From: Antedon mediterranea
Taxonomy: Eukaryota; Echinodermata; Crinoidea; Comatulida; Antedonidae
DNA length: 64,000 nt
NCBI RefSeq assembly: GCF_964355755.1
Contig: NC_092672.1
Span: 32,298,501 to 32,362,500 of the forward strand
Reading direction: 5' to 3'
Below, in pieces: positions 7,614 to 51,800 of this stretch. The notes under the pieces are model-generated. The model was not told the origin of the DNA and ran no database searches. It saw only the letters and a list, made by a program, of their open reading frames with translations. A program made the position numbers and the translations under genes. How positions within the stretch are numbered: the first letter of the stretch is position 1; every line of letters begins with the position of its first letter.

Positions 7614-10368
7614 TTATTTTGAGTTGGAAGAATGTGGATCTGTTGATGATTGTCCGTAATTTTCATTAACAATGCTTGTTCCGTTCTGCGCTACGAAGGT
7701 ATACGGAGGTGGAGGTTCATCTATTATTTGAGTTGTTGGTATAAGTAGCAAATTATTGCTGTACAGTGATTGGTTCGCACTTGGCAACGATGAAGTCCTA
7801 TTGGATGGGTAGTCATCACCCATGACTTGGTGAAAGTCAACAGTGCCTCCAACGTTCAACTGGTCCTGCATGCTCTGCGAAGCACTTCGGTCAAGTGGCT
7901 GGAATCGAACGTTTACGTTTTGTCTTCTTGCACGACGCTCGGCCTTCCAACGCTGATAACGGCGCAAGCCAAAGTATTCGACGACGAGCAAGAAAACTAA
8001 AACTATTATACTAAGAGCTGTAATTAAACTCGCTGAAACGCTTTGTCCGCCAGAAATTACGATATCTGAAATGATATAATACAGTAACAATCTTAACTAT
8101 TAGTTTTTAATTTTTATATCATGTTAAAGGCTGCAGTAGTGAATTGGTTGTTTATGGATTTGTTGTATGTACAATTTATGTTGTAAAACTTATTTCTGGC
8201 GTTACCATTTTATTTTTACCATTGTTTAAAAGCAAGAAACTCATCATTATAAACAACTCTAATTGGAAAAAAAAATAAAAATCAAAATTTGGTCTTTTAT
8301 TAGAGGGAAAATACATTATCGTAACAAATTACACTTACTAATTTCACAGTCTGCCCAGACTTCATCTGTATGTGAGCAATCATGTGTTTCTTCCAACCCT
8401 TTAAATGCACAGTCCAAAATATTTTTTTCCATACCCGTGCAACTAATATCTTCTATAAATATCGGACGTTCGACATCATTGTTGTCTTGCATGCTTTTAT
8501 ACGCATTAATAGCTTGCGAGTTTAAATATGTTTTGCAGACGATATTTGCATCTGCCATCGTCCAGTCCCTATCGCAAATTGTTCCCCATTCTCCATCGTG
8601 ATATATTTCGACGCGGCCTTGCTCAAAGTGAGCTCCTCCGGTGAGCCGTAATTTTATTTCTAAAAAAAACATAGAAAACTGATAAAGCAACTATTAAATT
8701 ATATAGAAATGCCAAGGGAATTAGATGACTCGTTGCCAATATTGGTACTTTCCATTCAATAGAAAACTAGTGAAGCGTGTTAATTTGAAAAGGCCTAACC
8801 AATATCTTTTTTAGGCAAGCACCATTATAAAAACAATAATCAACAATGGCCTTGCAATCTGTTATTTAATCTACCAAGCTGTAGTTAGTTCAGAGTGATT
8901 TAAAATCAATCCCTTTTTTCTTATTTTGTGTAATGGCTTGTTGATTGCACACACTGTAGATCTTCTGTATAGACAAAGGTCCCTCCTCAATGTGCACATA
9001 TACTATTGTTGACTGGATAGCAGTTAATGGAACACACCAACATCATACCATGGAGTTTACCCAATCATCATGTTAGGCCAAGTTGTTACACTGGGCCTAT
9101 ACAGTACCAGCGAGCCTAATTGAACAATAAATCCATATAAAATGGACAGAGACAGATCCGGGAATGCACTCCCCTTTTGACAGTTGAAATGAAATTATGA
9201 TAGATAGAAATTTTTGATAGACTATATTATTTATGTTAGTAATCCTGGATTATAATGAATCTTCCCTTGATGGATATTGATAATGTTTTAATGTTAAGTT
9301 TATCTTTTAATAATGTACCGTCAAATCCTGAACATTCCAGCCACAATCGGTTATCATTTGAGCAATTTGTTATTGAAATGTATGGACACTGTAGAAGAGA
9401 ATCTTCATTTCCAATGCAAGCAAATTGAGTTGATGATGATGGTGCTTCCAGCAGGCTACTGTTCCAGTGCATGTTCTTCTTGGGTAGGCCTAGGTCAAGT
9501 TGACGACACGCTACTGCAGCATTCTCGTTGTACGACCCTGCCCAGCTTTGCTTGCACACTGATATCCATTCAGTATCTGGGGCTAACCTCATTATCAGAT
9601 ACCCATTCAGGTCAGAAGTACCCTGGGTAAGAGCGACCAATGGATCTAAGGGAGATTTAAAAAAAGAATAATTTAATCAAAAATTAGGAATTAATCTAAA
9701 AATAGATGCATTGATTATGTTTAAATAACAGAATCTCCAAATAATATTGGATGATCAAATAAAGATTAAAACGTTTAAATTATTCATTCCCTCTCATTTG
9801 GAGTTTTATTAGGCCTATATAATTATTCTATATTTATACATTTATTATAAAAAGGATCTCCAGTCCAACAAGGAAAAAAAAAGATGCAGTCGTATCGTAG
9901 TGTCAGTATACTATAAATATAATGGCAAATGGTAGAATTTATTACACGCCTGGGCCTAACAAAAATAATCAATTATTATTAATAATAATCCGATCTTTTA
10001 TGTTTTTTTAATATAATGATTGCAATAAAGATTATTTTTAATATATTATTAATATTGTGTATTGTTATTAATTTTATTATTTAAACAAAATTAAATATTA
10101 CTTTATAAGCATAATAGAGGTCTAGACATTACATGTTGTTCTATTATTGGATTTATGCCCACCTGATATATTATAGTATGCAAAGCATGTATAATAATGT
10201 AACCCGAAAAACCTAGGCCTATAGCTTAGCTAGCGTAGGCCTAGACTCAAACTTACTCTGAAAATATTCAGCAACCGCCGATTCAGCATACCACCTCATC
10301 AAACAAAACCAGCAAAACAGCCACGGTAAGGAAAATACTTTCGCTGTTCTTCTACAGTCCAAATTCAT
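7614..10368 (-). CDS. Two-SRCR-domain type I membrane receptor (four exons)
   Basis: Exons: 10257-10368, 9319-9645, 8339-8659, 7614-8065. All splice sites are GT-AG and phases agree, giving 403 residues. Exon 1 encodes the ATG and a hydrophobic signal peptide (LPWLFCWFCLM). Exon 2 encodes a divergent SRCR-like domain with WISVCKQSW, VACRQLDLG and LLQCP. Exon 3 encodes a canonical group A SRCR domain with six cysteines (GRVEIYHDGEWGTICDRDW, ILDCAF, HDCSH, WADCE). Exon 4 encodes a single transmembrane helix (LITALSIIVLVFLLVVEYFG), a basic stop-transfer segment and a cytoplasmic tail of about 110 residues containing EPPPPYTF, a PPxY WW-domain ligand. SRCR receptors bind microbial or endogenous ligands and are greatly expanded in echinoderms. 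The ligand of this one cannot be told. The exon structure is inferred from signals and domain continuity. Confidence 0.85.
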
Positions 10369-13116: not shown

Positions 13117-14889
13117 TTAATAGTTAAATATTTTGACACATTTTCTTTCGTATTTTATTCCTATGACTTTTACACCTTGGACATTTGTTTTATAGTTTAA
13201 TACTGCTACTCGTCTTGGTTTGGTTGACATTACTGTGATTCCTCTAGGACAGTTTAACCCATCATCTACATCATCTATTCTTGTTATGAAAACTCCATTT
13301 TTATCAAATAATTGAAGTTTTTGCTCACTTGATACTATTATGTTTTCATCCATATCCATTGTGATGCTATGAGGGCGCCAAACCTTCCCATCTCCATGAC
13401 CACACCTAACAACAGTTTTTACTAAGGTGCCGTTTGGATCAAACATTTGTATTTTATTATTCCCAGTATCAGTAACCAGCAAATTTCCTTCTTTGGTTAA
13501 GGTGACATCTTGTGGTTCTATGAGTCCATATAAAAAAACACCCTTTGGCCCTATTTTACTCATCAATTTACCATCTTCAATATTAAATTTAAAAACACAA
13601 TGAACTTCACTGTCAGCAACATACAACATGTTGGTTTCATCGTTTATTACCAAACCCTCTGGAGACTTCAATATTCCTTTACCAAACTCAGTAGACGCTC
13701 TCAGCGTCCAAACACACTTTCCTACTTTATCACTAAACATAATGTCACCATTACTCATTGAATACATTCTGTTGACGTCATGTTCACATTCTGTTTTACC
13801 TACAAATTTACCCGATTGATCAAACTTCAATAACTCTTGACTACAGCTTGAAACTAAGATACAGCCATCTGAATCTAATTCTACATCGCATATTCTGTCT
13901 TCGTTATCGGCTGCTTTGTGGAATGCAATAGTGTCAATGAAATGCACCAGTCCGGGCGATTCCACGTTGATGTTTACTGGAGAACCTTGGACATTGGCTA
14001 AATCAGCAGTGACCTCCATCTTCCAGTCACCTTTCACATTACATCTACCTTTCATCTTATACTCTCCACATCCCATGTACTCTATCTCATCAATGGATCT
14101 TTTTTCACCTGACGGAGTTATCATGGTAGCAGCTACCTTACATGCATCATTTTCATCCAGAGTTTTTACCTTGATTGCCAATGATTGTCCCTTTGTTACT
14201 GTAATGGATCTATCATCTTCATCAATGATGTAACTGTTGTTGACACTTTGAATTCTACCAAGACCCCTCATGATAACATCATCCAGTTGTGTATTTATTA
14301 CGAACGTTGGTGTAACTGTCAGACATTTGATATTTCTTGATTTAATGTCCTTGTTATTTTCTTTAACTTCATCGATATTCGACTTGAACTCATCTAGATT
14401 GTTTACCTTTCCTGGGAAATCTCTCAGTGCTGTAACTGATGTCTTCAAACTTTGCACTTCCATTTGGTGTGTTTCTAGCTCTTCCACATGACTTTTAATG
14501 GCGTCATTCTTTTGTTTACATTTCTTTTCAAGATCCAACAATAGTTTTTTACCTTCTTCTCTAACTTTCCTAACAGTAGCCTCTGTATGCGTTTCAATAG
14601 CTGTTTTTGTGTATTCTGAATGTAATGTAAATTTTCCCTTATTTTCCATTATTGAATTGTATGTCGCATCTAATTCCAGTTTGATGTCATTCACGGCTGT
14701 GAGAACTTCATCTACTCTTTGGTTACAATTATCTATGGCAAGCTCTATCGGTTCTGTATTATGATTATCATAACAATTCATGAAATGCTCACATTCCTTG
14801 CATGCACATTTGCTACAAGTTGTACAAAACATGTTTAACTTGTGTTCTGGATGGTGTTGGCATCTGCGGTGTATTTCTTGACTTGACAT
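13117..14889 (-). CDS. TRIM-like B-box/coiled-coil/filamin-like/NHL protein
   Basis: A single 590-codon exon. Residues 10-43 fit a B-box zinc finger (C10, H13, C22, C25, C30, C33, then H35/H43). Residues about 55-180 are charged heptad-rich coiled coil. Residues about 205-310 look like an Ig/filamin-type domain (AATMITPSGE, GEYKMKGRCNVKGDWKMEV). Residues about 320-575 are NHL-type propeller repeats, clearest in GNLLVTDTGNNKIQMFDPNG. This is the order of TRIM2/3/45/56-like proteins, but there is no RING finger at the N terminus, so E3 ligase activity is doubtful. ATTTTTACAG immediately before the ATG is a strong splice acceptor. A plausible donor at about 15188 (AAAG then GTTAGT) suggests a 5' UTR exon, although an upstream RING-coding exon cannot be excluded. 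Such genes are numerous in echinoderms and are often intron-poor. The target is unknown. Confidence 0.85.
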   Translation of the reverse strand: MSSQEIHRRCQHHPEHKLNMFCTTCSKCACKECEHFMNCYDNHNTEPIELAIDNCNQRVDEVLTAVNDIKLELDATYNSIMENKGKFTLHSEYTKTAIETHTEATVRKVREEGKKLLLDLEKKCKQKNDAIKSHVEELETHQMEVQSLKTSVTALRDFPGKVNNLDEFKSNIDEVKENNKDIKSRNIKCLTVTPTFVINTQLDDVIMRGLGRIQSVNNSYIIDEDDRSITVTKGQSLAIKVKTLDENDACKVAATMITPSGEKRSIDEIEYMGCGEYKMKGRCNVKGDWKMEVTADLANVQGSPVNINVESPGLVHFIDTIAFHKAADNEDRICDVELDSDGCILVSSCSQELLKFDQSGKFVGKTECEHDVNRMYSMSNGDIMFSDKVGKCVWTLRASTEFGKGILKSPEGLVINDETNMLYVADSEVHCVFKFNIEDGKLMSKIGPKGVFLYGLIEPQDVTLTKEGNLLVTDTGNNKIQMFDPNGTLVKTVVRCGHGDGKVWRPHSITMDMDENIIVSSEQKLQLFDKNGVFITRIDDVDDGLNCPRGITVMSTKPRRVAVLNYKTNVQGVKVIGIKYERKCVKIFNY

Positions 14890-14989
14890 CTGTAAAAATA
14901 CAGAATCTTTTTCAAATAGTATTTCGGCATATTTTTCTATTGTGTTTTAATCAACCAGATTATCAAAACATTCTTAACTTGACTTTATT

Positions 14990-29583: not shown

Positions 29584-32500
29584 TCAAGCAGTGGTGTCTG
29601 CATCATGATGGTTGAAACCGTAGTGGTTGCGTTCTCCATCGTAATCATTGCCAGCGTACACTGGTGTGGTGTTTTTAGGATTGCCATAATCTCTTTTGCC
29701 AGATGATGTCTTCATTGGTATATCTTTTGCATAGTCAGCATCGTCATCGTAGTCATCTCTTGTCTTGCAGGATTTGAAAACGTCGTTTTTGGTGATATGT
29801 ACTCTACGTCGAAGTGCTCCACACGCGGAGATACTCTACAAAAAAACAAAGGTAGTTACAATAGTTACATAATACCAACAGTAGAAGAATATTACATAAT
29901 TATCATTTAATTGTACCTCTTTTATTCATTGTACACACAACCTAAAAGGAACTACAAATTGATACACACTGTCTTCTAGAATGTCATAAAACGTCTTGAA
30001 AACTTACCCAATTTGATGCCCTATAGATTTTAGAATGCTGAAGAAACTGTTGGACATGTTTATGAGCAAACTTGTTTCACCGAACATTTTTAATTTAAAA
30101 CTGGATTTGTATGCCTAGAATGTACTGACGTCCTTTATAAACCTTTGTGTTTGTCCACATTATAAAACGCCATAGGTCTATTTTAGGCCTACTCTACTCT
30201 GCCAAGTTAATGGTTATGAATGTATTTCTCAAGATCAAGGAAAATAGAGAAAAAGTGGAAGAGTTCACACCAGCTCCCAAACTAAAGTATGATTCGCTAA
30301 CCAGGGTGAATGATGAAGTAATGAACTGAAGTATGGTTATATTTACTTACATTTACACTTGTGCTTCGGCGAGAGTTTCTAGCTTCTTTTAATGACGCCA
30401 CGATCCAGTCAATAACCAGAAGAACGATTGCGATACCAATTCCAACGAACAGAAAGTAAAACACTCCTAGCATCTGACTTATACCAATCTTACTTGGAGT
30501 TGCGTTGCTTGCTGAAATTAACGAGAAGTGTATTCTAAAAGTGTTTGCACTAACAACCCGATTGATGAAGGGAAATGGAAAGATTTAGGAGGAGTTCATG
30601 TGGTAACAATCATGGAAAGAGACACGTAAACAAGAGGAGAAAAAGAGTTGGTACGCTTGACTGCTTCAATAATGATAAAAACTGCTATGACCACCTAACT
30701 GTAGACCACCTAAGGAAACTAAGCAATTGGTAGACATTATACAGTAGGTGAGGTCTTGAGATTTTCGACCTTATGATCTAGGAACTACTGTAGGAACAAG
30801 TCATGTAATTCAGTGTGCACGTTTGGACATGGTTCATCAGTGATGCTGGACTTGCATACACCCGACTCCTTGCGTTTCTAATTGAGGAAATAATATGTGA
30901 TAGAAAGGACCTACCAGCACCGCCGTCGCATCCACCAGAGAAGTATCTCTTCTGTAATCCGTCCATGAAGTCTGATTGACGAAGCTTCAATATCTCCAAG
31001 CTAAATGGTTCCGTGTAAAGTGAGTTACGAGCAAGACCCAACCCGTAACCAATCTATGAATAAACAACATGTCAGTTTTATATAAAAGGTAACAGAATGA
31101 TAACAATAGTAGGACATAGATTGGACATCTTCCATTGATGAGAAAGCTTATTAGATCTGGTGAAGGAATATTTTTATTCTACTTCTATTAGTTGTTTATT
31201 GAACTCTGTCGGCACCAGTCCTGGAAATTTCAAGCACACTTTTCAATATATTTACAAGAAACTTGAAAAGTATTTACTTTTCCAAATAGTCGTCCGACAG
31301 TTCGAACGTCGCACGGTTCAACGTTGGCCTCATAGTCAAGAACGGCTGAATCAAATATAAAAGCGTAATTCCCATCGCGGACCGCTTTTATACCTTCCGC
31401 TGCTGAGGTCACGTGTGATTGCTGACTATTCATGTAACGAGATGCTCTCTGGAACGGGTCTACTTTGGCGTTTTCGAAGTACGCCTGAGGCTGACTGTCC
31501 TCCACTGTGCCATATTTCACTGCAGTCTGTCTTGATAGATCATCTATTGAGTTGATTCCTGTTGAGAAATTGCAACAATACATTACATCTTTGTTATTCC
31601 CCAAACAAACTAACCTCCGTGTATTGTCACAAGATATTACCTTCACTAGCCTTTGAAACGGTAAGAAATGCAGCCAAATTGGCCGTGTACGTTGCGATGA
31701 TGATGGTGACGCCCAGCCACCAGAACGTGGCAACCACACGTCCTGCCAACGACTTTGGATTGTTTTCTGCCCCCTAAAAATAAAGAAATAAAGGTTGGGT
31801 CTGTCGGACTATTACCAATGATTGAAAGCAGAATAATTATGTCTTCTTCACAACTTATCAACATTAAAATAACTTATTCTTTATACCTGTTGTACACCTG
31901 CCGCGAACGACCACCACATGGCGTTATATAAATTCATACTGTTCCGATCGACGAATTCATCTTTCCTCTTCTCCGGACTTTGTATGTATTCACCGCAATA
32001 TCCATTGGGGCTGAAGTAGCTGCAACCAGCGACAAGAAATCCAACAAGTACAACAGTTAATATCACTAAAAAAAAGTAAGGATGAGTGAAAATCATGGTT
32101 TAATATGACTTCAGCGGCTTGCATGTTGTTTCTCTTTCAGCAAATTTAAACCCGGTAAAAGTTGGTAGAAAAATGAATATGAAATGCAGGGTTATTGCTA
32201 CTTTACGTCAAATGTTTATGTTGGTTGGTCAAGCAGATCCCTGCGGAAGCCGTGGGTTAGGTGGATGCGGCTCATTGTGAAGCTTTTGATTCGTGAAACA
32301 TACCAGCAAACATCAACCGAGTAAAAGTTGGTACAGAAATGTATAGTAACTGTGAGCTTATTGTTGCTTTATGTTTCACAGTAAAGTACTGGTAGTCGAT
32401 TAAGCAGGTCCTTGCAGAAGCAACGATTTCTGTCGATGCGACTAAATAAGCAGCAGCTGAATACTTACCAGCAAGCCACAGATCCATGCTAAAAGGATCA

Positions 32501-35500
32501 AGAAATGCAAATAGTCCACTTTCCTTCTTAGATTTGCTCATTAGTATCGTCAGTCCCAAATCAAGATAAGGCTTTGTAAAATCTATCACTTGCTCTCGTT
32601 CATAGCTGATAGTAAACGGTGCAACAGCTACGTCAGCGTTCTGTTAAGTGAAACAAATTTATGATAAACCTAAAGCTAAAAAAGTCTTAGCAAAGTCAGT
32701 AATTTTGTGATCAGTGATTCTAGGTCATGAAAATGACCGGTGTACAGGTATATTGATCGAAACGTCGAGAAACTGAACCAAAGGCAATATTTCTATACAC
32801 TTTTGTTCTTAGATAACGAAGTCGATTCCATGAGATAAAAAGAACTGGTGCTTTGGTAAATGAGTTTCAGTTTTTCACTTAAGCACTTCCTAACTATTTT
32901 AAGCAAAAAGAAGTCTTTTATTTACGTCAAAAAAGGGCCAATTTAAATGCTTATAATTGTATTAAAACAATAGAGTTTAAATCTGTTCTGCCCTTTAAAC
33001 TTACCCCCTCCAAAAGCTGCTTAACCATACCGTTCCATTCGTTGGTAAACGGATCAATATTACCATAAGAACCATCTGGAACTACCTCAATGACGTATTC
33101 AAATTTCATGTTCTTTTTTAGTTCGTTGAGTAGGTCAATGCAATAGCCATAAAAGCGGTCGCTCGAGTTTGGGTTAATGTTCGGACCTTCTAACTCCATT
33201 ACAAAGGGCTTTTCCTACTTGAGATAAAATATAAAATAATTAAGTGATAATGATAATACCCAATTTACGGTACATTAAATAAAACATTACAGACAGTTAT
33301 AATTAGGAGCGAATATAATTAATTAAAGACAGTTTTGATTAGAAAAGGTGTTTCTTCAATCATAAAGCTCTGTCTACACTATCAAACTTTATGTTACAAC
33401 AAAATGTGATGTGCCCATATATGGACATAATGATGTCATATCACTACTATACTAGTATTTGGAAATATCTGTACTATATGGGGACATCACAATTTTTTTG
33501 TCACATAAAGTTTGATAGTGTAGACAGGACTTTAGTATTACTATTTACACGGATCATAGATAGTACTCACCAAAATAGTAGTAATACTAAGAGTAATGTT
33601 TGTGAGATCATTTGAGCTGTCCTTTGGCAAATCGGCAGATCTTCCCATAAAGCTGATTTCTTGGTCATCAAAAAACGTATAGTTGTCATCTGAATACCAT
33701 TCTCCTATCTAAAAGATTTGATCACGTTTAATTTGTCTCCCAATATCTCTTTAATCTGGTGGCATTTTGTGATTTAGTGACATTTTACGATTTGGTGACA
33801 TTTTACGATTCGATGACATTTTGCGATTTGGTAACATGGAGATATGTGACATTTTGAGATTGGATGGTATTTTGAGATTCAATGGAATTTCAGTAAATGG
33901 GCAAATAATATTCTGCCTTGACAACACACTCATTATAGTTGATACAATGAGGTTGATGTAACCAATCCAAAGAAAGTAATTGCGTAATATAAGATGACGA
34001 TATACCTTTTTGAACCCAGTTGAGTGCATATTAACGATATCGTATCCTCCAATATCAGGGGTTCGGTATTTGTCAAACGCTATCATGTTCATAACACCAG
34101 GACCAGAGGTCTGTAGAATCAAAATGTTTATGTAATATTTATTCATAAATACTTTCCCATCCTAACCTTTTTACTATGTTGTTTATTTTCTTTTACAGTG
34201 GTTTATACTTTCTGTTCTTTCTGATTCTGTTCTGAATATTATTCAAATAAATAACATTATTTTATTTAAACATCAACTGCACTATAAAGCCATGTTCAGT
34301 TTGTTTTTTAATTTCCTTCTCTCTATCACCGATACTCTCTTGAACTTTGACCCCATCTTGTGAATACCACTTTATGAATTGGAATTATTTATTTGGATGT
34401 AACTTTCCACCTCACATTGAATATACAGATAATCCTGAATATAGCTTCATGTACTTACATTACTAATATATTCCATTAGCAATTCTCCAGATTCCCATGG
34501 TTCAACATCTTCCATTGAGCATAGTCTGTTTGGAAATTGCCTCAGTTCGATTTTGTTGCCAGCATTGACAAAATCGTTAAGACCGTAGGCTAACGCAATC
34601 ACAGCATCGTAGAGCAACATTCCATCCACCTACAAAGTGAACATTATTAAGGACTTTCTAAAATTTGAGTAGACATATACTCTGTGGAAAATCTGAGCAG
34701 CCGTCCATATGTAAGAAATCAAATCAGAGAAAAGCAATGCTTTTTTTTATTTATGCAAATGATTAATAACGGGACTATCATTACCAGACCTCAGACCTGG
34801 ATGCAATGTTCACAATGGGCAAGGCACAAGGTTTTTTTTTTGGTTTGGTAATTCGTTTCGCACGACGTCTAGTGACAGTCAGTGCTGGTGACGTGAAAGT
34901 TTATGTGTATAAAACTTGCTTACTGGATAATCTAAAGTACAATTAGGCAGAGTGTTATCGACTTCTAAAACAGTTGACCAATCTTCAGAAAACTTCTCGT
35001 ATAACTCGCCTTCAGATATCGTAGGTCGTGTTCCAATCAAGCCAATCAGGTGAGCTCCTGGCTTGTCACATGTTTCATCAAATAGAAGATTCTGTAATGA
35101 AACAATTTGGAAGCGAGGATCTTTGAGTTAGCAGTAGGTGTAAAGCGCCGAGGCTCTGAGAACACACAATAAATTGACACTTTTCCAAACATAACTTACG
35201 ATAACCTGTCACGATAGATGATACACGATCTGAACAACAACAAAAACACTTACGTCTGTTGTGATACCATCTGTAACTAGCCACACCCATCCTCTTTGGG
35301 TCATGCCTTTGTTCTTAGCCTCAGCCAATACAATTCTTGCATGTTCTGCTAGGCAACTAAGGAGGATTATTCTAGCCCCTTTGCTCCTTATTGATCGTAA
35401 TTGACTGTCAGCGTCTACGGTTTCTGTGTATGTGTCCTGCGGAGCGTAAAACTGCTCATGCGCTACTATCTTCCAGTTTCGTTGAATTGCAATTTTCACA

Positions 35501-38500
35501 AATTCTCGAACTGAATTTATTCCTTGGAAAAAAAATGTTTAGTTCAGGATTAGCAAGGATAACTGTGTTTATAAAACCAGTTTAGTTACTCGTGTTGATA
35601 ACTAAGTGTGAACGTGCCCGTATTATGACCATTGTGCAGACTTAAGCTTGGTTCCCACAACGACCCAACGCAAGGATGTAACGCAAAGTGATTTGACCAA
35701 TCACAAGCGATGGATTATTCGAACAGTGGCAATTCGCTTGCGTTGGGCGTACGTCCTTGCGTTGCGTCTCTAGTGGGAACCACGTTTTAGATGATAGTAT
35801 CAACAACATTGTTATTGAAGATAGGAATGGATAATTTACATAAATTACCATAATCACTCGATGACGTCAGAATTGCTAACTTCTCCCAGCCAAAGTGATT
35901 CATAATGTCAGCCAGTGCTCTGCTCTGAACGTTATCTGGAGGTAGCATCTTTAGAAGATACTTGTACGATGAGGTCGTCGTTGAAAACGTAGGATCCGTA
36001 GCCATTGGGGCAATCATGGGTATGTGTACGCCCTCACAGATTGGATAGACAGCCTTTACTGGAGTTGAACTCATCGGTCCTATTATTGCACCAACCTTTT
36101 TCGTGAAAATTTCACATACTGCAAAAGGGTAAAAAGGGTCAAAATATTGGATTTTTAATTATATTGAGTTAACATGCGCAGAAAACAATGTGATTCTGCG
36201 CATGTTAATTATTAAAAAGTGTCGAAATTTGGCAATTAAACAATATTTTGGCCATTTTTCGAAAATGTACAGAGATTTTTTCAAAAATGGCCAAAATATC
36301 CACTTTATAAAATTCAATAAAAAATTTGCAATAATATTGACATATGCACATATATTGCGTCATTATCACCTTATAGGGTCATATAACCAGTTATGTCAAA
36401 AAATAAAAGGATCGAAATTTGATAATTTTTCGAAAATTTCTCTGTACTACTGTATAGGACAGGGATTTAAAAAAAAAATATGGCCAAAATATTGACGTTA
36501 TAAAATTCAATTATTTTGCAATAATATTGACATATATGCACATATATTGCGTTATTATCACCTTATAGGGTCATAGTAACCAGTTATGTAAAAAAATAAA
36601 AGGATCGAAATTTGGTCATTTTTCGAAAATTTCTCTGTACTAGGCCTATAGGACCGGGATTTTTTCCAAAAAATTCCAATATATCGACTTTTAATTCAAT
36701 TATTATGCAATAATATTGACATATATGCACATATATTGCGTTATCACCACCTTATAGGGTCATAGTAAGCAGGTTTGTGAAAAAATAAAAGGGTCAACAT
36801 TTTGTCATTTTCCGAAAATTGCCAAAATATCTTTTTCGAAAACTTTTTTGTCCATATTTCAAAAAAATCCATGTACTACAGTAGAGGGATTTAAAAAAAA
36901 AACTAAATTGCGACCCTTAATTTTATTTTTCAACATAACATAACTATGGCCCTATAAGATAATGATAACGCAATATAATGATTATAGCAGAATTATCGCT
37001 TAATTGAATTTAAACTTGATATTTTTGGAAAAAACATTTCTGTACTATGGCTAAATTACAAATGAGCAACTCTCATTTACACAAATCATATCTTCAACAT
37101 ATATCTCTCGATATAGGCCCAATTAGACTTGCCCCAAGTCTGTATTCATTGTCTTTTTTTTTATTTATTTGTTTATTTTTACCGCGATTTTTGTTTAAAA
37201 TTGCCCCAGGTAGTATATGTATGAAACGCCATGTGCCAAAATATTTATCTTTTTACTAATATGGACAAAACTCCGTCTGGAACCCAGACTAAGGCCCAAT
37301 CTATACAGAAGTAGATGCACTCTCTGGGTCACTTATTGACCTAGCGAACGGATACCATCAGCTTTTAAACTTACCCATGACATCTTCGATCAATTCGTAA
37401 TCTAATTTCTCAATTGGTATTTTAATATGACCACGTTACCACCGACAGCGCCACCTGTCGTCTATAGGTTTCAATTTGTTATTTTGATTCCGGGAACCAT
37501 AGCGAATATTATTCATTATAAATAAAGTACGCGCAAATACGTCACATGAAGCCATATTGAGTAATAAGACAACCATCTGACCTACTTTAATTAGCATTTG
37601 TCAACATTATTATTTATTTTGTTATATCAACTTTTGAACGTTGACAACAAGTATTGGGTGGATTACTCTGGTAACAACTGAACAATCTCGTTAAATATAT
37701 TGCCTTTAATCAAGGAAGAGTGAAATTAATCCACTCTTTCCTGCTTTAATCAACACGCTACGCGTCGGTACAACGATATGGATAAACGGTACTAAAGCTC
37801 GGTTTGTATTTGTGGGGTATCAGTATTAGGCCTATAGTACGAAAAAACAGTCTAACCTGAAATATTTACGCTTACAAATATTAACAGATACAGTTGAAAA
37901 TAGACAATTAGGCCTACACACACAAAAAAATCGTTTTAAAACGATAAATTTGAAATAAAAATATATTCAAAAACTTACAATTTTGAATATTGCCAAAAGC
38001 ATCTAAACTGGAATGGGTGTACATTTGATGAGGAACCATTCTATACCCAGGTAAAATATCCGGATCTAAATTAACTTTTGAAAACGCCAACTCTACTGCT
38101 CGTAGTTGAAGAGGTGGATTTTCCTGCGTTAATAGAACCCCTGTATTGAAAAATAAAACAGTCACTGGTAAAGTTTTACAAGTTTGCTGTGTGGACACAA
38201 GCTATAGTTTAAAATATATTTACCGACATCTACGCATATTTTAGTTTAAAAATTCGATAAAACTCAGAGTTTAACAAGAAAAGATTTCTAAACTTTGCTA
38301 GTGTAGTCGACCAGTTGAAAAACTTTGGCAAACTGCAGAAAACAAGTTTGTAGTTAAGTTTAGTTTGCAAACTCCGGCGAGTTTGTAAAGGAAACAAAGT
38401 TTGTAAGTGTGGACGAGTTGATAAACTTTGGAAAATTGCAAAGAAAAACATGTTTACAGAAATTTACACTAGGATTAGTTTGGAAATTCGAGTTTGTTCA

Positions 38501-42844: not shown

Positions 42845-45800
42845 CTATGTCGTTATACTAACAAGCATAACAGTAACATTATCCGAACTACCGCGTCTGA
42901 TAGCCTCCGCAGCCAATCGGCTGCAAGCAACTTCAAGCTTAGCGTCAATGTTTTCAGTTTTATTATCTCCCGTATCGTCAGTCTGAAAGAAAGAAATGGA
43001 CATAAACATTGATTTACCAACATCAGATATTTAACAAGAAAATTGGAGACATAAGACAAAGTTTAACCTTCAATATATTGTTAATGAATTCCAGAGCGCC
43101 CTCTATAGTGAATCCTTTCCATAAGCCATCACAGGCCAGTAGTAAAAATCTATAAAAAGATTTAAAAAGTTTTTGTAGTGGCAAAAAAAATTAATTACAG
43201 TACTTTTTGAAAGGAAAGGGAACATTTGTTAAAAATAAACATTTTTTAAACAAGGAAAGAGGTGTACAGTACACACAACTTTATAAACAAAACATAAGAG
43301 TGTTTAAAATTATGGTCACAGTTTAGTGCGTACTGCTCCTTCTCACTTACTTATCTTTATCAGTAAGAAGACATTTCTTAACATCAGGAATACAAGTGAC
43401 TCCACAATGTTTAAATCGGCCATCTCCTATTGAACGAGACACCTCAAGAATTCCCATTATACGTCCATCTCTAAATAAGCAATCAGAAATGTTTTACAAA
43501 AAACTTAGATGTTACACTATTTAACTACATGCTTCTCGCGTCATGTCGGTGCTGCCAACTACAGCGCTGTTTTGTCCACAACAGTGGCTGTGCGAGCTAG
43601 TACATCAGGGTAACCCCCTACGCCTCTCGAAAGATGTTCTAGGTTCTAAAAAGTGCACATGAGCATTTTGTGTACACTGGACCTACGGTTTGTAGTCCTA
43701 ATCCACCATAACCATAAAGCGAGTGAGCCTCGAACCTTGCCATAATGCAATAGATTACGGTTCCACTGTCTTAATAACCGCTGGCCACTCACTCCCTAAA
43801 TGTTTGTATAATATGTTCTTGGTATGATAAGATATTTGTACAACACAACAAGACACATTTCAGGCCTTGTCTTTTGAATATTATAGGTGTGCTACAAATT
43901 GCACTCCTCAATACATTCAGGGATGCTGTAGGTGTGCTGTTTGTATTTTGGTGTGTAGAAGTTTACCAAATTTAGGCGTGTTGTAAATCGCACTCCTCAA
44001 GGGCAGTTTAGGAGTGAGTTAGGTAAGTGATCGCACTCGCTCGCCTTAAAAGGCTTGACATGTTTTCTAGGCCCAACTTACGTAACTTTGCCTCCAGCCT
44101 TCTGAATCCTTATACGTTCCTCATACTGTGTGGGGCTGTGGTCTCTAGACAACGGCAGGAAGTGATCAACTTTAGAGTCTTCATTATAACGACATAACAA
44201 AGCCTATCAACATAATAGCATTATTGTGTTTAATTTACAATTATTATGAAGTTTATTAAGCACACAGATATTTATAACAATGATTAATTCCTGTACAAAA
44301 TAAATTGGTCATTAAGGATCAAACTAATAGTAATACACTGTACAGTATACATTCATTGTTTCATAAATAAAGCCTAGGGAAAAAACAATTTATTTTTAAA
44401 TTATTTTCTCACATACATTAAGGTATCTATATTATATACTGTTAACTTGTTTATTTTTAAATCGTAATAAGGTACACAGTTAAACCCCTAGTAAGGGAGC
44501 TCTTTGGGACCCAACAAATTGTCCCCTGAATAGAGAGTGTCCCCTAAATAGGGGTACCCTAAAACTTAATTAAAAATTAAACACTAATTGATCTGGACTC
44601 AAGGAATTGAGATAAATTGAAACTTTAGCAGCCAACGTTTAACAAATGAAAACTGTCAAGTTAGAGAAAGTATCATCATTTTTGGTATCAATAACTATAT
44701 AATTATTTTTTGGTCTTTTTTTTGATGGAAAAAAAATTGTTTATTTATATAAAAATTGTATGTAGGGCTGGGCTTGGGTAGTGGGGTATAAACATTGTCC
44801 TGGAAAGGATTTAAACTATTTGAATGAATATTGTCATGCTTATGAAGTATATATTCTAGGCCTAGTACTATTGCATCATCATATATAAAATCGTTCCCTT
44901 TTTTTGGATATTACTAATAATGTAAATGTGGTTTTCAGAATTCTTGTAATAATTGTAGGACTGCCAGTATGCATGGACATATATTAGTCAGATAAGTATG
45001 TTAATAATGTTATTAATGTTCCTAAATTGGTAATGAAATCAGACAATAAACAAAGAAACCAAGGTACATCGTGGTAAACTTGGTTTTGTGAAACTATGGG
45101 ATTTCCACTCCTTCCTGGAAACACGTTTGACATGACACAAAATTTAGTTTTCATACATTCATTCATTTCCTTTGCATTTAGGTAACATAATTTGGCAAAT
45201 AAAGACCTTTCATACCAAACGACAGTACTTTGAAGACCTTTCAAACCAAACTACAGTACTTTGAAGATCTTTCATACCAAACTACAGTACTTTGAAGACC
45301 TTTCAAACCAAACTACAGTACTTGAAGATCTTTCATACCAAACTACAGTACTTGAAGATCTTTCATACCAAACTACAGTACTTGAAGATCTTTCATACCA
45401 AACTACAGTACTTGAAGATCTTTCATACCAAACTACAGTACTTGAAGATCTTTCATACCAAACTACAGTACTTGAAGATCTTTCATACCAAACTACAGTA
45501 CTTTGAAGATCTTTCATAGTACTTTGAAGATTCAAGAATATCGCCATCTATTGTTATTAAAGTTGTTTTTAATTTAAAAAATTAACATTTAATTGAAAAA
45601 CTCTAAGAGATGTATAATTCAAGCCGTGGCAATTGGACAATTTCTACTTCTTATAGTAGAAAAATGTATATTGAACCTGAAAATATTCATTTTTTAAGTG
45701 CTGGACTGACAAGCATCATTAGTTTAACAGGAATATTTGAAAACCTGATTGTTATTTTGGCTGTTTGCTGCATTTGTCAACTTCGGAAGAAACCGAATAT

Positions 45801-48800
45801 CTTAATCGTTAACTTGGCCGTCGCCGACTTTTTAAGTGCCGTTTGTAGCTTCTTTTTCATGTTCGCATGGTCATATGAAATGGTTGAGGACATTATATTA
45901 ATAATGATAACCATAATGACTTGTTCGTTAATATTTGTTCTTGCTGTGAGTATGGAACGCTTCATAGCTATTGCAGCTCCGATAAAATATCGATACATTG
46001 TTACCGGAAGAAGATTAGCAATTCTATGTACTTTCTTATGGGTACTGGTCGTGTGCGTAATTGTTAAATTTTGTATAATGACTAGTTATTTCACTGTGAG
46101 GCTCAGTCTCGCATTGACTGTCATTGTGGTATTTGTGTATATATTGATGTACTTTATTTTAAAACATTCAACTAACCAACATTCAACGGCTGGATCTGCT
46201 AGACAGGCTAGATTACGATCAGTATTTATCACGTTTAGCATTCTGGTGTTTTCTCTGTTCCTGTGTTTGATACCAAACCAGATATTGTTGTTAATTCATT
46301 TAGAATGTATGGATTTATCAAATATGTCAAGTTGTTCCTGGAATGATTATTACTATCAGATTACTTTGCCGCTTCTGATGATGAATTCGGCTTTAAATCC
46401 CATCGTATACTGGTGGCGCATTCCAGAGCTGAGAGACGGAATCAAACGTGTATCATGCTTCATATTATTATGTTCTGAACCAGAAAATAGAAACAACGAA
46501 TGTAACCAGGGTGTAGATGAGCAACAGGTGTAAGATATCCAATCTCAAACTTCCAAACAGCAGAGAAATTGACTCTACACAATCAAACTAGTGTGATGTG
46601 CCAAATATGGTAGTGATATGACATCATTGTGTCCATATATGGGCACATCACATTTTTTTTGTCACATAAAATTTGATAGCGTAGATAGAGCTTTAACATT
46701 CAAATACACTGGACATAAATAGAGATCCTTATCACAACCACCAACCTGGACAAATGAAGAAATTAAACCAATCTATTGAATTTTTAAGTTTAAAATTGAA
46801 ATCTTACTAAGACTGATTATAGACGTAGAGCTAAAATCTAGAAGTAAGAAAGTAACTTCTGTAAAATCCAATTACCAGGCAGGTTTCAGGTGATCGTGCA
46901 TTTTTCAAATATGGCCCTGTGTTCTCGAATGCTCTTCCAGCACAAATTAGACTGACTGAAACAATAGTTTTGTTTAAACGCCTTTTTAAAACGTATTTAT
47001 TTCCCAAGTAGTTTTAATATCTGAGACTTCTATATTTTTATATTTTTTAATATTCCTATTTGCATATTATCTCACAATGGTTAAACTGTTACTACAAAAT
47101 GAATATCCTGAAACAAGACCGATCATTGTGCAAAGACCTAGTTTTCACGAAAATGAAAAAATAATAATAACAGGTTTATGAATCTATTCTGCAAAAAGAG
47201 CCAAGCTCAAATTATTATTATTATTATTAAATTATTATTATTGCATAAACAAATAAAGACATACACACTATGTATTTATTTGTAATGTCAGTAATTTTTT
47301 TTTTCTCTTTTGTGGGGGAAACCCACATTTATTTCCAATTTCAATAATGTCTAAAAAGATAATCATACCATATTAATATTATATTATGTCAGCAATTTAT
47401 GTTTATCACTTTGTATGTATTTTTTATAATTTTTCCTAATAAATTCAAAATGTTTGGAGAAAATTTAGTACCAGCAGTTTAATACCAAGTTTCTGTTAAA
47501 TAATTAAACACTGATTTTTCTTTATTGTTGGTAATTAAATTGCGCATGAACCTGAAATAATATTACATGGTACAAAAAGATCCCAATGTTAAAGTTTAAA
47601 GCCTCTTAAAGTAAATATCTATAACTTGTTTCATCTAGAATAACATCATTAAAGATACCTTTTCTTAAAACTGGTGATCTAATCTAAAATGAAACTATAT
47701 ATACATTGTGTCAACTTGTTTTCTGTGAATCGTGGAAGTTCCATGATTTCAACAAACCAAGTTTGACGTTAACAACATTAAATTTAATGTACGATATTTT
47801 GGTTATAGAATATAAAGAAGCATTCCTGGAATTATTATACCAATTATCTGCTGTGCAGATTTGTAAGTCAGTCCATTTCTGAAACCTATACATAATATAA
47901 TATTTGTTATCTATCAACATAGTAAACACTCCTAACAGATGGATTACTCAAGCTACAATTGGACAGAGTATCCTTATTATTCTTGGGAAAATATTCATTT
48001 TTTGAGTGCCGGTTTGACAAGCATCATCAGTGTTGCCGGTATATTGGAAAACCTGCTTCTTATATTTGCTGTGTGCTCTATCCGTCAACTAAGAAAGAAA
48101 TCTAATGTCTTACTTGTTAATCTTGCTGTCATAGATTTTTTAAGTGCGCTTTCAAGCTTTATTGTTTTATTTGCACAGCCATATCAGGAGATTATGGCAA
48201 TTGTAATGATGATGATAATCATAATGACTTGTTCGTTAGTATTTGTCCTAGCTGTGAGTATGGAACGCTTCATAGCTATTGCCGCTCCGATAAAATATCG
48301 ATACATTGTTACAGGAAGAAGATTAGCAATACTATGTACTTTCTTATGGGTACTGATTTGTATATATATCTTAACATTTGGACATTCAATCCTACTTGTT
48401 CTCTTAAGCTCAGTCTCGCATTGACTATCATTGTGAGGCTCAGTCTCGCATTGACTATCATTGTGAGGCTCAGTCTCGCATTGACTATCATTGTGAGGCT
48501 CAGTCTCGCATTGACTATCATTGTGAGGCTCAGTCTCGCATTGACTATCACTGTGAGGCTCAGTCTCGCATTGACTATCATTGTGAGGCTCAGTCTCGCA
48601 TTGACTATCACTGTGAGGCTCAGTCTCGCATTGACTATCATTGTGAGGCTCAGTCTCGCATTGACTATCATTGTGAGGCTCAGTCTCGCATTGACTATCA
48701 CTGTGAGGCTCAGTCTCGCATTGACTATCACTGTGAGGCTCAGTCTCGCATTGACTATCATTGTGAGGCTCAGTCTCGCATTGACTATCATTGTGAGGCT

Positions 48801-51800
48801 CAGTCTTGCATTGACGATCACTGTGAGGCTCAGTCTTGCATTGACTATCATTGTGAGGCTCAGTCTTGCATTGACTATCACTGTGAGGCTCAGTCTTGCA
48901 TTGACTATCATTGTGAGGCTCAGTCTTGCATTGACTATCACTGTGAGGCTCAGTCTTGCATTGACTATCACTGTAAAGCTCAGTCTTGCATTGACTCTTA
49001 TTGTGGGATTTGTGTATATTTTGATGTACTTTATTTTAAAATATACAACTAACCAACATTCAACGGCTGCTAAACAGAAACGATTACGATCAGTATTTAT
49101 TACATTTAGCATTCTGGTCTTTTCTCTGTTTTTGTGTTTGATACCGAATCAACTATTAATGATAATTTGTTATAACGCTGAATATACAGGTACTAAGGAT
49201 TATTATTTTCAGATTTTTTTACCACTTCTGATGATGAATTCGGCTTTAAATCCCATCGTATACTGGTGGCGCATTCCAGAGTTGAGGAATGGAATCAAAC
49301 GTGTATCATGCTTCATATTATGTTCTCGTTCTGAACCAGAAAATAGAACAACGAATGTAACCAGGATGTAGATGAGCAACAGGTGTAAGACATCCAATCT
49401 CAAACTTCCAAACAGCAGAAAAATTTACTCTACACAATCAAACTACTGTAGTGTGATGTGCCCAAATATGGTAGTGATATGAGATCATCGTGTCCATATA
49501 TGGGCACATCACATATTTTCGTCACATAAAGTTTGATACTGTAGACAGTGTCATAATAGATTTCATTATCACAACCACAAACTTGAAGAAATCAGAGGAA
49601 CCAATCTATTGAATTTTTAAGTTTAAAATTGAAATCTTAGTAAGATACTTTCACTGATTATAGAAAATCTAGAATTAATCAAAGTAACTTCTGTACAATC
49701 CAATTACCAGGCAGGTTTCAGGTGATCATGCATTTTTTGTTTAGCTCCTAGAAAAGAGTTCATCGAGACATGGGAATGGTGGCAGATAATCTCACAATGG
49801 TCTGTTATTACAAAATGAATATCCTGAAACAAGACTGAAAAGACTTAGTTTTCACGAAAATGAAAAAAATAACAATAACAGGTTTATGGATCTATTCTGC
49901 AAAAAGAGCCAAGCTCAAATTATTATACTGTAGACACTAATAAGTTTTTTTCTCCTTTGTGGGGGAAACCCACAGTTATTTCAAATTTCATTAATGTCTA
50001 AAACAATAATACGATATTAATTATTAATATATTATAATGTCAGCAATTTATGTTTATCACTTTGTATGTAGTTTTTATAATGTAGTTTTTCTTGATAAAT
50101 TAAAAATGTTTAGAGATAATTTAGTACCAGCAGTTTAATACCAAGTTTCTATTATATAATTAAAAACTCGATTTTTCTTGATTGTTGGTAATTAAATTGC
50201 GCATTAACCTATAAATAATATAGTCACATGGTATAAAACGAGCAACGATCCCAATGTTAAAGTTTAAAGCCTCTTAAAGTAAATATCTATTACTTGTTTC
50301 ATCTAGAATAACATAATTAAACATTAGCTTTTCTGAAATTGGTGATTTAAACAGACAATATAAAAGAAACCCAGTATAAATTGCGGTAAATTTGGTTTTG
50401 TGAAATCGTGGAAACAAGTAACTATTTTCATTTCAATGGACTGATCATGTACCTATAAATGTCATTGAATTGTAGAGAACTTGGAAAAATAAGCATTCTG
50501 GTATACTGATTACAATCTATTTTTCAGATGCGAGTAGATTTATTGTAGTCAATTGTTTTTCTGGGACTTCTACATCATTCAATAAAAATAGTTTATCTGA
50601 TAAAGGTGAACACCTTTTGACAGATGGATAACTCCAGTTACTATAATTGGACACAATCAACGAATGATTTTTCTATTAATTTTGTAGATGATAATTTTAT
50701 CATTGTTTGCATGACTAGCATCATTAGCGCTGCAGGAATATTCGAAAACCTGATTGTTATTTTAGCCGTTTGCTGTATTCGTCAACTAAGGAAGAAATCT
50801 AATGTTTTAATTGTTAACTTGGCAGTCGCTGATTTTTTAAGTGCCATTTTCAGTTTTTATTTTTTTTTTGCATCTTTAAAATTCTATTGGTTTCTTGCGA
50901 ACGTTGTATTAATGATGATAACCATAATGACTTGTTCGTTAATATTTGTTCTTGCTGTGAGTATGGAACGCTTCATAGCTATTGCAGCTCCAATAAAATA
51001 TCGATACATTGTTACAGGAAGAAGATTAGCAATACTATGTACTTTCTTATGGGTGTCGGTCTCCTCCTGCGTAATCTTTCAATTTTTTACTACAACTATT
51101 TTTTTTGCTGTAAAGCTCAGTCTTGCATTGACTCTTATTGTGGTATTTGTGTATATATTGATGTACTTTATTTTAAAACATTCAACTAACCAACATTCAA
51201 CAGCTGCTAAACAGAAGCGATTACGATCAGTATTTATCACGTTTAGCATTCTGGTCTTTTCTCTGTTCCTGTGTTTATTGCCAAACCAGATATTGTTGTT
51301 AATACATTTTAAACTTGAATTTATATCTTTTGAATTGGACTCTTGCTACTGGAAAGGATATTGTTATCGGATTACTTTACCGCTTCTCATGATGAATTCT
51401 GCTTTAAATCCCATCGTTTACTGGTGGCGCATTCCAGAGTTACGGGACGGAATCAAACGCGTATTATATTTTGTGTGTTGTCGTTCTGTAGCAGGAAATA
51501 GAAACGACGAGGAGAACCAGACAGATGAGCAACATGTGTAAAGTGTGTTTCGTTTTCCCGACGATTTATGCACCAATCATTTTACTCGATATGAGAGTAG
51601 CCGCGTCGTAAAAAGGAAAAGTTGCTGCTGCTGTAGCTTAATTTGACCTGAATTAGAGCTGAACCGAAGCAGGTGCGGAAGACCCTTTAGATACCCAAGC
51701 TCAATCTTTCGAAGCAAAAAAATATGTATATAACACCAGTAATTATAAACATTGTTGTGGAACTCTAAGCGCTGTACATAATATACTCAGGTCATATTTG

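Follow-up and report, generated by a model that had tools for sequence, protein, structure and literature searches.

Five homologous GPCR genes stand in a row on the plus strand, and the second of them (g2) carries a 30-bp minisatellite of about 20 copies in its TM5 codons, and its reading frame is broken just upstream of that array. We consider it probable, at roughly 80%, that g2 became a pseudogene recently, within a receptor cluster that evolves by birth and death, and that its array is an ordinary minisatellite grown from its own TM5 codons. Read this way, g2 would be a clear snapshot of turnover in a tandem receptor cluster, combining hybrid flanks, average constraint, a frame break and a minisatellite of transmembrane codons. 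A repeat that stays in frame in the raw sequence is not enough, taken alone, to infer that the protein is expanded. The features of the row are collected in Table 1; the window is the whole 64-kb stretch of DNA that was analysed, at 32298501-32362500 of contig C3.

Table 1. Coordinates, within the window, of the five receptor genes and of the array and lesions of g2
Feature	Position	Strand	Evidence or remark
g1, intact paralogue, 307 aa, single TM5 unit at 46099-46128	45610-46533	+	single open frame, Pfam
g2 5' part, ATG to TGA, 161 aa, TM1-TM4	47939-48424	+	Pfam 7tm_1, E 2.2e-15
g2 stretch from the FLWV codons (TM4) to the first array codon, 53 nt	48353-48405	+	frame changes here
g2 30-bp minisatellite	48408-49005	+	19.9 copies; unit (K/R)LSLALT(I/L)(I/T)V
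g2 3' part, last unit, TM5-TM7 and early-ending tail, 131 aa	48976-49371	+	Pfam 7tm_1, E 4.8e-8; Srsx, E 1.3e-8
g2 tail, one nucleotide short of g1 within a short A run (second deficit)	49335-49388	+	comparison with g1
g3, intact paralogue, 305 aa	50624-51541	+	single open frame, Pfam
g4, intact paralogue, 312 aa	53067-54005	+	single open frame, Pfam
g5, intact paralogue, 297 aa	55899-56792	+	single open frame, Pfam

A receptor cluster with one broken member

The four intact genes are class A GPCRs by profile, with Pfam 7tm_1 E values from 6.1e-25 to 7.2e-20, and the Srsx profile is also matched by all four and by both parts of g2. MERF and NPIVY, which we take to be the E/DRY-like and NPxxY-like motifs, are present in g1, g3, g4 and g5 and are found across the two frames of g2. 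Among solved structures, g1 is closest in sequence to MC2R (1.8e-12), with the alpha-1A adrenergic and adenosine receptors next. A genome search with g1 gave 126 matches, and among the best 30 of these the nearest ones outside the row lie on C10 and C9 and three rows contain an internal stop. The same best 30 of 126 matches correspond to 29 distinct loci, two of the 30 being the parts of g2, and only in g2 does an array (period of at least 10, at least three copies) lie within the GPCR match itself.

The g2 array spans 19.9 copies of a period of 30 bp, with 96% matches, 0% indels and a score of 1056 in TRF, and is thus a minisatellite, its head-to-tail unit falling within the usual range of ∼10 to 100 bp. 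Laid out unit by unit it fills 20 positions, each differing from unit 1 at 0 to 4 of 30 bases. Position 24, in an ATT/ACT codon, varies in eight units and is the sole site of difference from unit 1 in units 1 to 13. Units 14 to 20 share a silent change at position 10, with one further silent change in unit 14, and the most divergent units are 19 and 20, with 4 of 30 bases changed in each. The TM5 counterpart of the unit is present once in each neighbour, as RLSLALTVIV in g1, KLSLALTLIV in g3, KLSFTLTIIV in g4 and KLSLTLTIIV in g5. Across the 354 Mb and 18 contigs of the genome searched, the full array occupies a single locus; it has two further matches, one to the single unit of g1 (38 bp) and one to that of g3 (35 bp).

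The first-pass annotation had described a GPCR in which a 30-bp unit from the start of TM5 is repeated 20 times, codon-aligned with the helices that follow and separated from TM4 by an independent frame break. The TRF count and the Pfam 7tm_1 match agree with the first point; for the second, the array and TM5-TM7 form one frame, open to 49368, which differs from that of the ATG. The break itself was also confirmed. Only 53 nt separate the FLWV codons from the first codon of unit 1, against 54, 57, 54 and 54 in g1, g3, g4 and g5 (counted from their translations), and as a result the ATG frame, open from 47939 to 48421, ends after 161 aa at a TGA (48422-48424) within unit 1. The second 1-nt deficit, in the tail, brings that tail to an early end (TNVTRM), while a stop of the g1 type is still present in another frame at 49386-49388. 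This second lesion, the cluster of five, the hybrid flanks of g2 and a further 30-bp array upstream of g1 are additions to the first-pass annotation.

In the assembled allele no single open frame therefore crosses all of the TMs, since the frame that begins at the ATG reaches its stop in unit 1 and a different frame holds TM5-TM7, and the repeat falls outside the reading frame of the gene, as it would not in a coding VNTR. A frame break with a stop and a second 1-nt lesion, in a copy whose paralogues are intact, are the disabling lesions by which a pseudogene is recognised.

Two ORFs on the minus strand and one more frame on the plus strand also stay open through the array, as the unit has no stops in those frames. 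As candidate genes these were rejected: their whole-protein Pfam matches were to PARP and Death_2 (below cut-off) and to pentapeptide, zf-C2H2_16 and MYB-CC (above cut-off), and since no stretch of these proteins passes Pfam alone, we read the matches as repeat artefacts.

Origin of the copy and of its array

We compared 600-bp flanks of the five genes, with scores set against the best shuffle. The 5' flank of g2 resembles that of g3 (84% over 392 columns, score 456 against 35 for the best shuffle), whereas it is barely above shuffle with g1 (40 against 36) and above shuffle, though weaker than with g3, for g4 (83 against 34) and g5 (95 against 33). The 3' flank resembles that of g1 (80% over 374 columns, 384 against 32) and shows no match to the 3' flanks of g3 (22 against 45), g4 (24 against 32) or g5 (22 against 36). 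Between 46091 and 51054, one block after another of the g1-g2 spacer has its homologue in the g2-g3 spacer. Judged from these alignments, the hybrid flanks, g3-like on the 5' side and g1-like on the 3' side, suggest the trace of an unequal crossing-over between g1 and g3.

The coding sites speak against g2 being a simple g1/g3 hybrid gene. Where g1 and g3 differ, g2 sides with g1 or g3 at 32 and 28 sites in the 5' part and at 27 and 26 sites in the 3' part, and at sites polarised by g4 and g5 it favours g1 over g3 in both, by 10 to 2 and 12 to 4, respectively. No significant breakpoint was found within the g2 coding sequence (permutation p 0.10). The exchange may have taken place close to the start codon of g2 or ahead of it, or its position may have been blurred by later conversion. 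We also considered the array as the crossover junction and ruled this out, given the lack of a significant coding breakpoint and an array that looks far younger than the copy. The latter follows from comparing the 0 to 4 differences per 30 bases among its units with a g2-g1 dS of 0.61 in the 5' part and 0.36 in the 3' part.

The array is closest to the single unit of g1 for units 1 to 19 (31 to 35 of 36 nt) and to that of g3 for unit 20 (35 of 36). Expansion of the unit that g2 itself possessed suffices to explain this, as the derived coding sites of g2 are mostly shared with g1. Around its single unit, g1 has two 8-nt words, 7/8 alike, that stand exactly 30 bp apart. As a seed for slippage this direct repeat is only a hint, since 170 of 3335 placements across the four intact genes match equally well at an offset of 30 and an offset of 24 also gives 7/8.

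The sequence of events that we propose would begin with g2 arising as a copy by unequal crossing-over between neighbours in a cluster of class A GPCR genes, each a single exon, that lie in tandem. On average over its branch, g2 would then have evolved under constraint. At a later stage, 30 bp of its own TM5 codons would have multiplied to ∼20 copies, by slippage or by unequal exchange, and a change of 1 nt immediately before the array would have broken the frame, before or after the expansion. The assembled g2 could then encode, from its ATG, only a TM1-TM4 fragment of 161 aa, with a presumed loss of receptor function.

Minisatellites are common in this genomic background. Counting arrays with a period of 10 to 100 and at least three copies, we found 16 in 100 kb of control sequence (ten 10-kb stretches) and 11 in the window, the g2 array included. 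Among these 27 arrays, again including that of g2, 15 have a period divisible by three, which makes an in-frame period weak evidence for a coding role. Such periods are perhaps over-represented among minisatellites here (15/27; window and controls L031-L040). One control stretch, L040, consists almost entirely of a single 87-bp array. Another 30-bp tandem array, of a different unit and 10.4 copies, occupies 45202-45518 and ends ∼90 bp upstream of the g1 ATG; it has one matching place in the genome.

Constraint on g2 and competing explanations

Pairwise dN/dS between g2 and its four paralogues ranges from 0.27 to 0.54 in the 5' part and from 0.38 to 0.60 in the 3' part, and the pairs of intact genes give similar values (0.32 to 0.59 and 0.35 to 0.53). 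Under a branch model (263 codons, seven genes), the g2 terminal branch has an omega of 0.53, against 0.41 for the rest, which is not different from background (2dl 0.77) and is below 1 (2dl 4.74); this value is an average that includes the time before the break and gives no date for it. It is consistent with constraint on g2 over much of its branch and a late break. The power of the test is limited, as intact g4 and g5 do not reject an omega of 1 (2dl 0.75 and 0.77), whereas intact g1 and g3 do (2dl 9.74 and 12.53). In the tree, g4 and g5 group with a support of 99 and the remaining groupings have supports of 31 to 65.

When the two parts are analysed separately, the 5' part of g2 has, on its branch, an omega of 0.36 and rejects 1 (2dl 6.13), whereas the 3' part has an omega of 0.82 and does not (2dl 0.22; 2dl 3.58 against background). 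A constrained 5' part runs counter to the pseudogene reading, as it is what a surviving truncated product would show. g2 might then be a selectively maintained TM1-TM4 receptor, for instance a regulator of its full-length paralogues, with relaxed sequence downstream, and the absence of such a contrast in intact g3 (0.30 and 0.29) fits this. However, the contrast recurs in intact g1 (0.22 and 0.72), which is free of such a lesion, so that it is not attributable to the lesion of g2, and the 3' part of g2 still retains 131 open codons. We therefore regard a maintained truncated receptor as unlikely. As proof of either function or death in g2, selection is ambiguous, given the contrast in g1 and the failure of g4 and g5 to reject an omega of 1.

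The first-pass annotation went further in proposing that alleles lacking the indel, should they exist, would encode a receptor with a very long, variable hydrophobic insert. In such a translated coding VNTR, some alleles would lack the frame break and carry ∼190 additional residues where TM5 begins; most of these would be hydrophobic, with every tenth charged, and the length of the insert would vary between individuals. The single open frame shared by the array and TM5-TM7 and the hydrophobicity of the unit (Kyte-Doolittle mean 2.04 or 1.52) are as this would require. The assembled allele, which stops in unit 1 and has a second lesion, does not support the proposal; added hydrophobic length at TM5 should also disrupt the fold, and the array with TM5-TM7 scores just under the Pfam 7tm_1 cut-off (30.1 against 30.5 bits). 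An AlphaFold prediction of the array frame with TM5-TM7, from the single sequence, gave two helices of more than 100 residues with a pLDDT of 69 and a pTM of 0.33, and is uninformative. We consider a translated VNTR very improbable, and harder still to credit is a locus that segregates for the TM4-TM5 frame break and whose frame-intact alleles encode a length-variable hydrophobic insert of this size. Were that the case, it would be a coding VNTR inside a transmembrane helix, and intact alleles, if they existed, would test how much extra hydrophobic length a GPCR helix tolerates.

Alternatively, g2 could be a live gene in which misassembly produced the frame break and possibly altered the copy number as well. 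Because the array would persist in such a gene, this explanation overlaps with that of a translated VNTR. Sequencing errors commonly take the form of single 1-nt differences, and g2 was seen in one assembly. Two separate 1-nt lesions in the same gene argue against such an error, as do the unit variants interspersed through the array, which do not resemble a simple block copy, and we hold this explanation to be decidedly unlikely.

Birth-and-death clusters of chemoreceptor-type GPCR genes include pseudogenes. A recent pseudogene would fit such a setting, as the row g1-g5 likewise consists of tandem single-exon paralogues with a hybrid-flanked copy and a broken member. It differs from such clusters in that the broken member carries a 20-copy TM5 array, and any ligand or sensory role of g1-g5 would be putative. 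The DRD4 gene, which is functional, offers the closest parallel for the array that we found. Its exon 3 is described as containing a 48-bp coding VNTR, from which a portion of the third cytoplasmic loop is encoded, and that loop is regarded as disordered (PMC3877354). From that description, both are codon-aligned minisatellites inside a class A GPCR gene, whereas the repeats of g2 copy a transmembrane segment instead of a cytoplasmic loop and its frame is broken. Within the titles and opening lines of abstracts that made up our partial coverage of the literature, we found no minisatellite within a transmembrane segment of a GPCR, nor one within a pseudogene of this kind.

Other features of the window

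Shortly after g2, at 49452-49513, lies an inverted repeat whose 20-nt arms stand 22 nt apart. Its 19-base core has 10 matches in the window with at most three mismatches, two of them being these arms, against 0.02 expected; others lie, for example, at 253, 5628, 33406 and 46633. The inverted repeat is perhaps a small mobile or structural element.

Several further ORFs were observed on the minus strand. A non-LTR retrotransposon-like ORF at 23788-26619 matches endonuclease and reverse transcriptase in Pfam and contains in its N-terminal part DVESNPGP, presumably a 2A-like motif. The 609-aa open frame at 13117-14946 is TRIM-like: it has NHL repeats, and its match to the B-box falls below cut-off. 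Exon-like ionotropic glutamate receptor ORFs, with glutamate-binding and ANF_receptor domains, are found at 32272-32643 and 35787-36158, and an ORF with a scavenger receptor cysteine-rich (SRCR) domain is found at 8316-8690.
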